Positions 20,173 to 23,685 of a stretch of 42,255 nucleotides of DNA are shown piece after piece. The notes below the pieces were generated by a model. It searched no databases. It was given only the letters and a program-made list of their open reading frames with translations, and was not told where the DNA came from. Each line of letters starts with the position of its first letter. Position 1 is the first letter of the stretch. The stretch covers positions 1-42,255 of the forward strand of contig CAIRTR010000147.1 of assembly GCA_903881565.1 (NCBI GenBank), given 5' to 3'. The position numbers were made by a program, and so were the translations under genes. Origin of the DNA: Oligoflexia bacterium. Its GTDB lineage: Bacteria > Bdellovibrionota > UBA1018.

Positions 20173-20556
20173 GTGGTGCACGATTTACCAACGCAAACCA
20201 AAAATCTGGTGAGTTGCCTCACGTCGAAAGTCCGAAGCGACAATCCCCATTTGAAACGGCCCACAATTGATGTTGAATTTGACATGATCCACGCCAAGAA
20301 CTCATCTGGAGTCATGACTCTTCATTTAGTCGCGCGTGATCAGCGAACCAAATCCTACATCTATATGGCCGAGACTGGAAAAGATGCCAATGAATGGGTC
20401 GCCAAACAGAGCGAATTCTACGGTCGGATCTACCTTTTTGTTCGGCATATACTTGAACTTTTAAGCGAGGAAAATACAGTCCTAAGTCTTTCCGAAAAGG
20501 GACGTATTCTTGTAGAAATCGCAAAATGTGAGTTCCAGAAAATCATGCGCTCTTAA
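20173..20556 (+). CDS. Array module 1, + strand protein (family A), uncharacterised, GTG start
   Basis: 'HDLPTQTKNLVSCLTSKVRSDNPHLKRPTIDVEFDMI...SYIYMAETGKDANEWVAKQSEFYGRIYLFVRHIL'; paralogous to 21214, 22251 and 23305 ORFs. Confidence 0.8.
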   Translation: MVHDLPTQTKNLVSCLTSKVRSDNPHLKRPTIDVEFDMIHAKNSSGVMTLHLVARDQRTKSYIYMAETGKDANEWVAKQSEFYGRIYLFVRHILELLSEENTVLSLSEKGRILVEIAKCEFQKIMRS

Positions 20557-20959
20557 GCTGACGAATCATCTCGGAGACAGACTCCTTTAAGGCACGGTCA
20601 CTTATTTTCACTTTCGGCAACCTAGAGAACGACTTATAGAAGTCAACCTCTGGCTTCTTGGTGATGTTTTCGTAGGCGACTACAAATTTGTTTCCTCTAT
20701 AAGTAAGAACTTGTTCAGTTGGACTCACCGCAACTGCGATATATTTTTGATTTCCTGGTATTTGCCAGAGCCACATAGTCATTTCGGCACGCTCTTGAAA
20801 AAAATGGCGTTTACCAAACACAACCCCACCTTCAACATCAATCACTTCCTGAACAAATACGGCTTGCAGTTTCTTAAATTCGGCTAATGAATAAGAAACG
20901 ACCTCCTCATCCGTACCAAAAACTCTTTCTGATTGCGTCTGTTCCTCGCCTACTGACAT
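20543..20959 (-). CDS. Array module 1, - strand protein (family B), uncharacterised, 138 aa
   Basis: 'MSVGEEQTQSERVFGTDEEVVSYSLAEFKK...FVQEVIDVEGGVVFGKRHFFQER...LPKVKISDRALKESVSEMIRQLKSA'; paralogous in all modules. Confidence 0.8.
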   Translation of the reverse strand: MSVGEEQTQSERVFGTDEEVVSYSLAEFKKLQAVFVQEVIDVEGGVVFGKRHFFQERAEMTMWLWQIPGNQKYIAVAVSPTEQVLTYRGNKFVVAYENITKKPEVDFYKSFSRLPKVKISDRALKESVSEMIRQLKSA

Positions 20960-21016
20960 GTCAACGTTTCGGCATTTGAGCCCAAATTCTGAATGCGGTT
21001 TTTATCTCCAATGAAT

Positions 21017-21030
21017 GTCAGAAATCTGAC
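21017..21030. promoter_or_regulatory. Dyad GTCAGA-AA-TCTGAC in spacer 1
   Basis: Perfect inverted repeat; homologous GTCA-N6-T(G/A)AC in the other spacers; 156 nt upstream of the sigma54-like element. Confidence 0.5.
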
Positions 21031-21185
21031 TCTGCAACTTAAGATCCAGTTTCGAGCCCGAGGGTCCAAGTTGTGGAGCTAAAGATCAGTTGGGAGTAAA
21101 CCTGGAGCCGGCATGATTAATCGGATTAGTTCTTCATTTCAAGCATTTCATCAAGGCTTCAAAATAGAACCGCCCTAAATGCACT

Positions 21186-21201
21186 TGGCCCAGCCTTCGC
21201 A
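21186..21201 (+). promoter_or_regulatory. sigma54-like -24/-12 element, module 2
   Basis: TGGCCCAGCCTTCGCA; GG/GC spacing matches consensus; predicted +1 ~21212, ATG at 21214. Confidence 0.55.
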
Positions 21202-21213
21202 CACCGTGGCCCC

Positions 21214-21594
21214 ATGCACGATTTACCCTCGCAAGCCCAGAATCTTATAAGCTGTCTCACCTCAAAAGTCCGAAGCGACAACCCTCATTTGAAGCGGCCC
21301 ACGATTGAGGTTGAATTTGATCTCATCGAAGCCGCAAACGCCACGGGAAGACTAACTCTTCATTTAGTTGCGCGTGACCGAAGAACTAGATCCTACATCT
21401 ATCTCGCCGAAACTGACAAAACACCTAACCGATGGATCGGAAAAGAGAGTGAGTTCTACAGTCGAATCTTTCTTTTTGTTAGGCATATCCTTCGCTTTTT
21501 AGAAGGCGAAAATAGCAGCCTGAGCCTATTCGAAAGTGGAACTGCCCTTAAGACGATTGCCAAGCGAGAATTTCAAACCCTTATTCGCCGTTAA
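21214..21594 (+). CDS. Array module 2, family A protein
   Basis: 'MHDLPSQAQNLISCLTSKVRSDNPHLKRPTIEVEFDLI...SYIYLAETDKTPNRWIGKESEFYSRIFLFVRHILRF'. Confidence 0.82.
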   Translation: MHDLPSQAQNLISCLTSKVRSDNPHLKRPTIEVEFDLIEAANATGRLTLHLVARDRRTRSYIYLAETDKTPNRWIGKESEFYSRIFLFVRHILRFLEGENSSLSLFESGTALKTIAKREFQTLIRR

Positions 21595-21997
21595 GACAGC
21601 TAACAAGGCCTGCAACTGATTCTTTCAACTTACTTTCGTTGATCTTATACTTCGGCAACTTTGAGTAGGATGCGTAAGATACAATCTCGGGTTTATGAAC
21701 AAAATTCTCGTAAGCGATAACGAATTTCTTTCCCTTATAGGTAAGTTCCTGATTTCCGTCAGTCATGGTTACGGCTACAAATTTTTGAGTTCCAGGTATG
21801 TGCCACAACCACCTCGTCATGTCATCTCGCTCTTGAAAAAAATGGCGTTTACCAAACGCAACCCCACCTTCAACATCAATCACTTCCTGAACAAAAAGGG
21901 CTTGCTCATTCTTGAATTCGTTAAGTGAATACGAAAGAACTTCTTCATCCGTCTTAAAAAGCATTGGTGATTGCGTCTGTTCCTCGCCTACTGACAT
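21581..21997 (-). CDS. Array module 2, family B protein
   Basis: 'MSVGEEQTQSPMLFKTDEEVLSYSLNEFKNEQALFVQEVIDVEGGVAFGKRHFFQER...CLNGE'. Confidence 0.82.
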   Translation of the reverse strand: MSVGEEQTQSPMLFKTDEEVLSYSLNEFKNEQALFVQEVIDVEGGVAFGKRHFFQERDDMTRWLWHIPGTQKFVAVTMTDGNQELTYKGKKFVIAYENFVHKPEIVSYASYSKLPKYKINESKLKESVAGLVSCLNGE

Positions 21998-22054
21998 GTC
22001 AACGTTTCGGCATCCTAAACGAGATTCTGAATCCCATTTTTGGTCGCGATGATT

Positions 22055-22068
22055 GTCAAAAATCTAAC
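22055..22068. promoter_or_regulatory. Imperfect dyad GTCAAAAATCTAAC in spacer 2
   Basis: Aligned with 21017-21030; 155 nt upstream of the sigma54-like element. Confidence 0.4.
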
Positions 22069-22222
22069 ACCCCAACTCAGATCCGGTTTCGAGCTCCAGA
22101 GTCCGAATTGCAGAGTCAAAGATACGCTGACAGAAAACTCGCAAATCGTTTGGACGCCAATATTGGGTTGTAATTTCCCATACTTCAGTCAGGCTTCAAA
22201 ACCGAAACAACCTGGATACAGT

Positions 22223-22238
22223 TGGCCCAGCCTTCGCA
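22223..22238 (+). promoter_or_regulatory. sigma54-like -24/-12 element, module 3
   Basis: TGGCCCAGCCTTCGCA; predicted +1 ~22249, ATG at 22251. Confidence 0.55.
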
Positions 22239-22250
22239 CACCGTGGCCCT

Positions 22251-22631
22251 ATGCACGATTTACCCTCCCAAACCAAGAACCTTGTAGACTGCCTCACTTC
22301 AAAGGTGAGGAGTGACAACCCCCAATTGAGGCGGCCCACGATTGAGGTTAAATTTGACCTCATGGACGCCAAAAACTATGATGGGGACCTTACACTCCAT
22401 TTAATTGCGCGCGACTGGAGCACCAAATCCTATATCTATCTCGCTGAACTCGAATCTGAAAGCAGCGAATGGGTAGGAAAAGGGAGTGAGTTCTATAGTC
22501 GAATTTACGTTTTTGTCAGGCACATCCTCCGTTTATCAGAGGAGGAAAGCATTGGCTTAAGCCCGTCCGAAAATGGGCGACTACTCGTGGAGACAGCGAC
22601 GCGAGAATTTCAGATGCTCATTCGCCGTTAA
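22251..22631 (+). CDS. Array module 3, family A protein
   Basis: 'MHDLPSQTKNLVDCLTSKVRSDNPQLRRPTIEVKFDLM...SYIYLAELESESSEWVGKGSEFYSRIYVFVRHILRL'. Confidence 0.82.
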   Translation: MHDLPSQTKNLVDCLTSKVRSDNPQLRRPTIEVKFDLMDAKNYDGDLTLHLIARDWSTKSYIYLAELESESSEWVGKGSEFYSRIYVFVRHILRLSEEESIGLSPSENGRLLVETATREFQMLIRR

Positions 22632-23034
22632 GGGCTGACACAAGCCCATGAACGGATTCCTTCAGCTTACTTTCGTTGATTTTGTATTTCGGTAATTTTG
22701 AGAAGGATTTATAAAATACGATCTCTGGCTTACTCATGATATTCGCGTACGAAATAACGATTTTTTTCCCTCTTAAAGTCAAAACCTGTGCCGAGTCACT
22801 CATGGCGACCGCTACATACTTCTTAGTCCCAGGCAGATCCCAGAGCCATCTCCTCATTTCGTTACGATCTTGAAAGAGATGTCTCGTGCCAAACCCAAAC
22901 CCGCCTTCAACATCAATCACTTCTTGAACAAACACGGCCCGCTCTTTTTTGAATTCATTCAGTGAATAAGAAACGACCTCCTCATCCGTACCAAAAACTC
23001 TTTCTGATTGCGTCTGTTCCTCGCCTACTGACAT
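22618..23034 (-). CDS. Array module 3, family B protein
   Basis: Start trimmed to the MSVGEEQTQS Met shared with modules 1 and 2 (track ORF runs upstream to 23127). Confidence 0.8.
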   Translation of the reverse strand: MSVGEEQTQSERVFGTDEEVVSYSLNEFKKERAVFVQEVIDVEGGFGFGTRHLFQDRNEMRRWLWDLPGTKKYVAVAMSDSAQVLTLRGKKIVISYANIMSKPEIVFYKSFSKLPKYKINESKLKESVHGLVSALNGE

Positions 23035-23106
23035 GTCAACGTTTCGGCATTTTGGGCGAAATTCTGAAAACGTTTTTGACTGATTGACGGCTTCGGAGCA
23101 GAGGGG

Positions 23107-23120
23107 GTCAAAGTATTGAC
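23107..23120. promoter_or_regulatory. Dyad GTCAA-AGTA-TTGAC in spacer 3
   Basis: Inverted repeat with different inner sequence from spacer 1; 157 nt upstream of the sigma54-like element. Confidence 0.5.
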
Positions 23121-23276
23121 GCCTCAACTCTTAGTCCAAATTCGAGCCTGGTGGTTCGAGATCCGGAAGCATGATTCATTGGACGTCGAATCCATCGATG
23201 AAAATATCTGCGTCGATTATCCCAACAAAACCGAATGTCCTGCGCCTTTACATAAGGAATCATGAACACGCTAAGT

Positions 23277-23292
23277 TGGCCCAACCTTCGCA
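23277..23292 (+). promoter_or_regulatory. sigma54-like -24/-12 element, module 4
   Basis: TGGCCCAACCTTCGCA; predicted +1 ~23303, ATG at 23305. Confidence 0.55.
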
Positions 23293-23304
23293 CTCAAGCG
23301 CCCC

Positions 23305-23685
23305 ATGCACGATTTACCCTCGCAAACCCAAAACTTAGTAAGCTGCCTCACCTCAAAAGTCCGAAGCGACAATCCTCAACTCAAAAGACCAACTATTGAG
23401 TTGGAATTTGATCTAATCGAAAGGCAAAACTCCTCCGCAAACATTACAAATCACTTGGTGGCTCGGGACAGAAGAACGGGGTCTTACATCTATCTTGCTG
23501 AAACTGAAAAGGACACTGACAAGTGGGTTGGTAAAGACAGCGAATTTTATGACCGCATCTATCTTTTCGTTCGCCACATCCTCGAATTCCTAGCCCACGA
23601 AAGTCCCGACCTAAGCCTATTTGAAAAGGGCTGCATTCTCCGAGAGGTCGCAAAACAGGAGTTTCAGAAAATCATGCGCCTTTAA
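23305..23685 (+). CDS. Array module 4, family A protein
   Basis: 'MHDLPSQTQNLVSCLTSKVRSDNPQLKRPTIELEFDLI...SYIYLAETEKDTDKWVGKDSEFYDRIYLFVRHILEF'. Confidence 0.82.
   Translation: MHDLPSQTQNLVSCLTSKVRSDNPQLKRPTIELEFDLIERQNSSANITNHLVARDRRTGSYIYLAETEKDTDKWVGKDSEFYDRIYLFVRHILEFLAHESPDLSLFEKGCILREVAKQEFQKIMRL

Follow-up and report, generated by a model that had tools for sequence, protein, structure and literature searches.

The window analyzed here, a stretch of 42,255 nucleotides from an Oligoflexia bacterium, contains four tandem modules, numbered 1–4, each of which consists of a plus-strand gene (A, 126 aa) and a minus-strand gene (B, 138 aa) that converge and overlap at their 3′ ends:

20176..20556, plus strand: gene A1, 126 aa, GTG start at 20176 (alternative GTG at 20173), without an upstream sigma54-like box
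20543..20959, minus strand: gene B1, 138 aa
20543..20556: overlap of A1 and B1, 14 nt, TCATGCGCTCTTAA
21214..21594, plus strand: gene A2, 126 aa
21581..21997, minus strand: gene B2, 138 aa
21581..21594: overlap of A2 and B2, 14 nt, TTATTCGCCGTTAA
22251..22631, plus strand: gene A3, 126 aa
22618..23034, minus strand: gene B3, 138 aa counted from the conserved ATG
22618..22631: overlap of A3 and B3, 14 nt, TCATTCGCCGTTAA
23305..23685, plus strand: gene A4, 126 aa
23672..24088, minus strand: gene B4, 138 aa
23672..23685: overlap of A4 and B4, 14 nt, TCATGCGCCTTTAA

For B3, the ORF listing also offers a longer TTG start, which is not conserved, and the conserved ATG is preferred. The initial annotation had described an exact 14-nt tail-to-tail overlap in all four modules and had quoted the C-terminal residues of both proteins; the coordinates, overlap sequences, stops and residues in the window are all correct.

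The genome from which the window comes (4.56 Mb, 323 contigs) was searched for further copies and carries ten A genes and ten B genes, paired 1:1 and convergent in every case, with neither gene ever found alone. Besides the four tandem modules in the window, contig C22 has two modules in tandem, and C299, C25, C232 and C242 have a single module each. All ten pairs occupy opposite strands and have 3′ coding bases in common. Amino acid identity between modules ranges from 33 to 71% for A and from 27 to 72% for B and, judged by sequence, the modules are paralogues of one ancestral pair, hence not ten independent coincidences. In the B tree, modules 2 and 3 group as sisters (support 86/90); the trees are too poorly resolved for a tree-based test of concordance between A and B. 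The most diverged module, C242 (L021:3708-4488; 33–37% identity in A and 27–31% in B), retains the orientation, the overlap phase and both upstream boxes despite its divergence. The 5′ ends of B1, B2 and B3 are in part nearly identical DNA (20880-21032, 21920-22070 and 22960-23107); between B1 and B3 the near-identity spans about 75 nt, while the remaining parts of the genes differ by about one quarter to one third. These tracts suggest gene conversion or recent exchange inside the array.

The six copies outside the window are flanked by ordinary chromosomal genes that differ for each copy, as read from the ORFs, and include genes for usher and fimbrial-type proteins, an SMC-like protein, flagellins and others. 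A mobile cassette or integron was considered and rejected: no integrase, transposase or HNH gene was recognized in the ∼3–4 kb beside these six copies, and the array has no inverted repeats of at least 30 nt. Next to module 1 lies a DUF222/HNH-like gene (19127-20167, plus strand; both Pfam matches fall just below the cut-off), which ends 8 nt before the A1 GTG and has a near-consensus sigma54-type site upstream (19085-19100, TGGCACCCCCTTTGCA). It was rejected as a component of the module, as it adjoins module 1 only and 42 stretches of the genome match its family. In their mixture of arrays (of four and two) and single copies among ordinary chromosomal genes, and in common tracts suggestive of gene conversion, the modules resemble other bacterial paralogous families that grew by tandem and dispersed duplication. 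What differs is the unit of duplication, a convergent pair with both of its putative promoter regions, and the orphan status of the family.

The dN/dS ratio is 0.10–0.22 wherever dS is measurable, dS being saturated in most pairs, and all 20 A and B frames are intact. By these measures, A and B are real genes under purifying selection. One could still read B (or A) as an antisense open frame and no real gene, given that the frames overlap and that neither has a database homologue. However, the frames overlap by only 14–29 nt and the low dN/dS extends over their non-overlapping length, in comparisons that are saturated; this reading is already contradicted, and we assign it a negligible probability.

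Neither protein gave a convincing or above-threshold family match in Pfam, NCBIfam, PADLOC, PHROGs or PDB sequences. The best PDB profile match (Scone-R, to B, 2.5e-5) was judged to be due to chance, since no stretch passes alone, and no homology was found between A and B. The structure model of A is fairly confident (pLDDT 85) and has an alpha-beta-beta-beta-alpha-alpha arrangement, that of B is poor (pLDDT 59.5), and neither model has a fold match at E≤0.001. No homologue of A or B was detected in 60 relatives, in searches of a sample of the phylum with A and with B profiles, in the other genomes of the order that were searched, or in plasmids and phages; the 378 other genomes searched in the phylum have neither gene. 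Scans of GTDB contigs and of viral contigs for short peptide patterns, which find only close relatives, were likewise negative.

The genes never occur apart, from which we infer that A and B would be two small soluble partner proteins; this partnership is read purely from co-inheritance, and duplication as a unit would equally give 1:1 pairing. More specifically, A and B could be antagonists kept as a unit, in an addiction, immunity or toxin-antitoxin-like pair. In favor of such a pair, two small proteins under purifying selection stay matched strictly 1:1 in ten copies that have diverged and dispersed, but the usual toxin-antitoxin layout differs from convergent genes with separate promoters. 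Moreover, comparison with toxin-antitoxin and known defence families returned sub-threshold matches only in the five databases named above, no fold match was plausible, and no mobile-element genes were seen beside the six other copies. Antagonism of this kind is therefore quite improbable.

The overlap measures 14 nt in eight of the ten modules, 26 nt in C232 and 29 nt in C242, and its length equals 2 modulo 3 in all ten. Thus the fixed length proposed initially applies to the window modules and to four of the six others but breaks down in C232 and C242. The span of the A-B module is 784 bp in seven copies, 781 bp in two and 772 bp in one (for C232, the value varies with the start assigned to its B gene); because this span hardly varies (772–784 bp), the genes themselves are at least as constant as their overlap. 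Within the overlap, A codon positions 1, 2 and 3 lie opposite B positions 1, 3 and 2, that is, in phase (123:132). Among convergent overlaps of at least 5 nt surveyed in 58 prokaryotes, which were attributed to mutation of a stop codon, this phase was the commonest (49%) (PMC2174442). The modules resemble known prokaryotic convergent pairs (PMC2174442, PMC2478687) in their opposite strands, 3′-end overlap, phase (123:132) and explanation by a stop-codon change. They differ in that a single genome has kept the overlap in all ten of its diverged paralogous pairs, and in that the coupling of the A stop to a Leu codon of B can be traced.

The three bases of B that lie antisense to the A stop (TAA or TGA) are the final two of a conserved C-terminal Leu codon (CTT or CTC) and the A that opens the following codon, which, as a codon-by-codon alignment of the 3′ ends shows, usually encodes Lys or Asn. 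Two more B codons and the B stop, which stays three codons further on, complete the 14 nt. The overlap thus persists because the A stop is antisense to the B Leu codon, the position of the B stop is kept and indels are nearly absent. The two longer overlaps arose from substitutions that changed the A stop into a sense codon. In C232, a Lys to Glu (GAA) replacement in B turns the A stop into CAA, and in C242, a TTA Leu codon in B turns it into TTA; in both modules, A extends to the next in-frame stop. The A stop, which the initial annotation gave as always TAA, is TAA throughout the window but TGA in C22b, C25, C232 and C242. The C-terminal Leu codon of B is CTY in nine of the ten modules, whereas CTY makes up 45–51% of the remaining Leu codons in these genes (P about 0.005–0.012, assuming independent copies, which these are not fully). 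This enrichment suggests that some selection acts to keep the position of the A stop, so that the overlap would not be wholly passive.

Covariation of the two 3′ ends had also been reported, and it is real: IMRS/IMRL goes together with QLKSA/QLKGA, and LIRR with LNGE. It carries no separate signal, however, since the same bases are read in two frames, which together with ancestry forces the pattern. Neither the fixed length nor the covariation lends support to a mechanism of antisense RNA or polymerase collision, as common descent, near absence of indels and dual coding suffice to produce both; no RNA mechanism is needed for the constancy of the overlap. The simplest explanation of these sequences is an ordinary overlap of a common type, in which one ancestral convergent pair was duplicated and its overlap kept by dual coding.

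Promoter-like boxes precede both genes. In the window, they lie as follows:

21185..21201, plus strand: sigma54-like box before A2, TTGGCCCAGCCTTCGCA
22222..22238, plus strand: sigma54-like box before A3
23276..23292, plus strand: sigma54-like box before A4, TTGGCCCAACCTTCGCA
20966..20992, minus strand: sigma28-like boxes before B1, TCAG-N15-GCCGAAAC, 6 nt before the ATG
22004..22030, minus strand: sigma28-like boxes before B2
23041..23067, minus strand: sigma28-like boxes before B3
24095..24121, minus strand: sigma28-like boxes before B4, TTAG-N15-GCCGAAAC

A GG-N10-GC box (for example, TTGGCCCAGCCTTCGCA) lies upstream of A in nine of the ten copies, A1 being the only exception, and its GC is separated from the ATG by 13 or 14 nt. 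Scored against the sigma54 promoter consensus, these boxes match 10–11 of 13 bases, and comparably good sites occur at 0.12 per 1000 background positions. Their final element is TCGC rather than the consensus TTGC in eight of the nine copies, and the box of C242 (CTGGAACCCGTTTTGCA) is the closest of all to consensus. Nine of the ten A genes carry the GG-N10-GC core near −24/−12 in a genome in which rpoN is present. Because synonymous sites are saturated between most pairs of copies, conservation of the box implies function, and A would be transcribed from a candidate sigma54-type promoter.

Before B, a −10-like [GA][CA]CGA box (GCCGAAAC, GCCGATAG, ACCGATAA and others) lies 6–7 nt from the ATG in all ten copies, with a weaker TCAG/TAAG/TAAA-like element 15–16 nt further upstream. 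Compared to the sigma28 form TAAA-N15-GCCGATAA, these sites match 8–10 of 12 consensus bases, with a weak −35 part (mostly TCAG, not TAAA), and fliA is present in the genome. Sites of the lower scores are not rare in the background, where those with 8 of 12 occur at 7 per 1000 positions and those with 9 of 12 at 1.2 per 1000. The B boxes thus resemble sigma28 (FliA) promoters, with weaker statistics than the A boxes, and B may be transcribed from a candidate promoter of this type. At L020:3743-4514 and 5156-5260, the C232 module adjoins two flagellin genes, the first of which has an upstream TAAA-N15-GCCGAT site similar in form to the C232 B box. If the boxes are promoters, their short spacing from the ATG suggests that transcripts start 0–3 nt from both start codons, yielding nearly leaderless mRNAs.

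The overlapping stops of A and B leave no room for a terminator, as the initial annotation had pointed out, and terminator-like sites in the array are not above chance (four found versus 4.6 expected in shuffled sequence). As a result, converging transcripts may overlap, and it is plausible that run-on A and B transcripts do so. Convergent genes without an intervening terminator correspond to the described layout of an excludon, and control of one excludon partner, or of antisense transcripts, by alternative sigma factors, RpoN among them, has been reported (PMC7154746). This is the nearest described arrangement; like the convergent 3′-overlap excludon (PMC7154746), the modules pair a convergent layout lacking an evident terminator with two promoter types, here suggested by motifs, and the likeness is one of layout. 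In a module acting in this manner, the overlapping mRNAs of the terminator-less pair would repress each other through RNase III cleavage or polymerase collision, making expression of A and B exclusive. The chance-level terminators, the two kinds of promoter-like boxes that point toward each other from the two ends of nearly every diverged module, and the published precedent of this layout under alternative-sigma control favor such exclusion. On the other side, overlap length and covariation are accounted for without it, and the length varies in two of the ten modules. Furthermore, codon conservation near the junction is not raised except in the last few, dual-coding codons, and the raised synonymous-codon conservation sits instead at the 5′ ends of A and B. 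The junction codons thus lend no support to an RNA function of the junction itself, although longer run-on antisense effects may occur. Overall, we regard mutual exclusion as unlikely. An elaboration that joins all of these elements, with each module a self-contained two-state cassette in which a sigma54/sigma28 partner pair is expressed from nearly leaderless mRNAs with mutually excluding run-on transcripts, so that the genome would hold ten parallel switches, is a long shot.

We consider it likely, instead, that the modules are at least ten paralogous two-gene cassettes, duplicated as units from an ancestor that already overlapped, and that the overlap is mainly inherited compaction. The cassette would comprise a promoter for A, gene A, the convergent gene B and a promoter for B, and would have been copied as a unit in at least nine duplications, in tandem in the window and in C22 and dispersed elsewhere. 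Each gene would be driven by its own flanking promoter, of sigma54 type for A and FliA/sigma28 type for B, and the resulting mRNAs, nearly leaderless, would overlap at their 3′ ends. Any mutual antisense effect would then stem from run-on transcription, not from the 14 nt.

An orphan cassette in ten copies, with different promoter-like boxes facing each other, is more interesting than the overlap it carries. The overlap serves as a clear example of how convergent genes keep, and lose, an overlap of fixed length when the conserved codons of one spell the stop of the other. If the promoters are real, the ten cassettes would lend themselves to studying, in a natural setting, how convergent transcription works under two alternative sigma factors.
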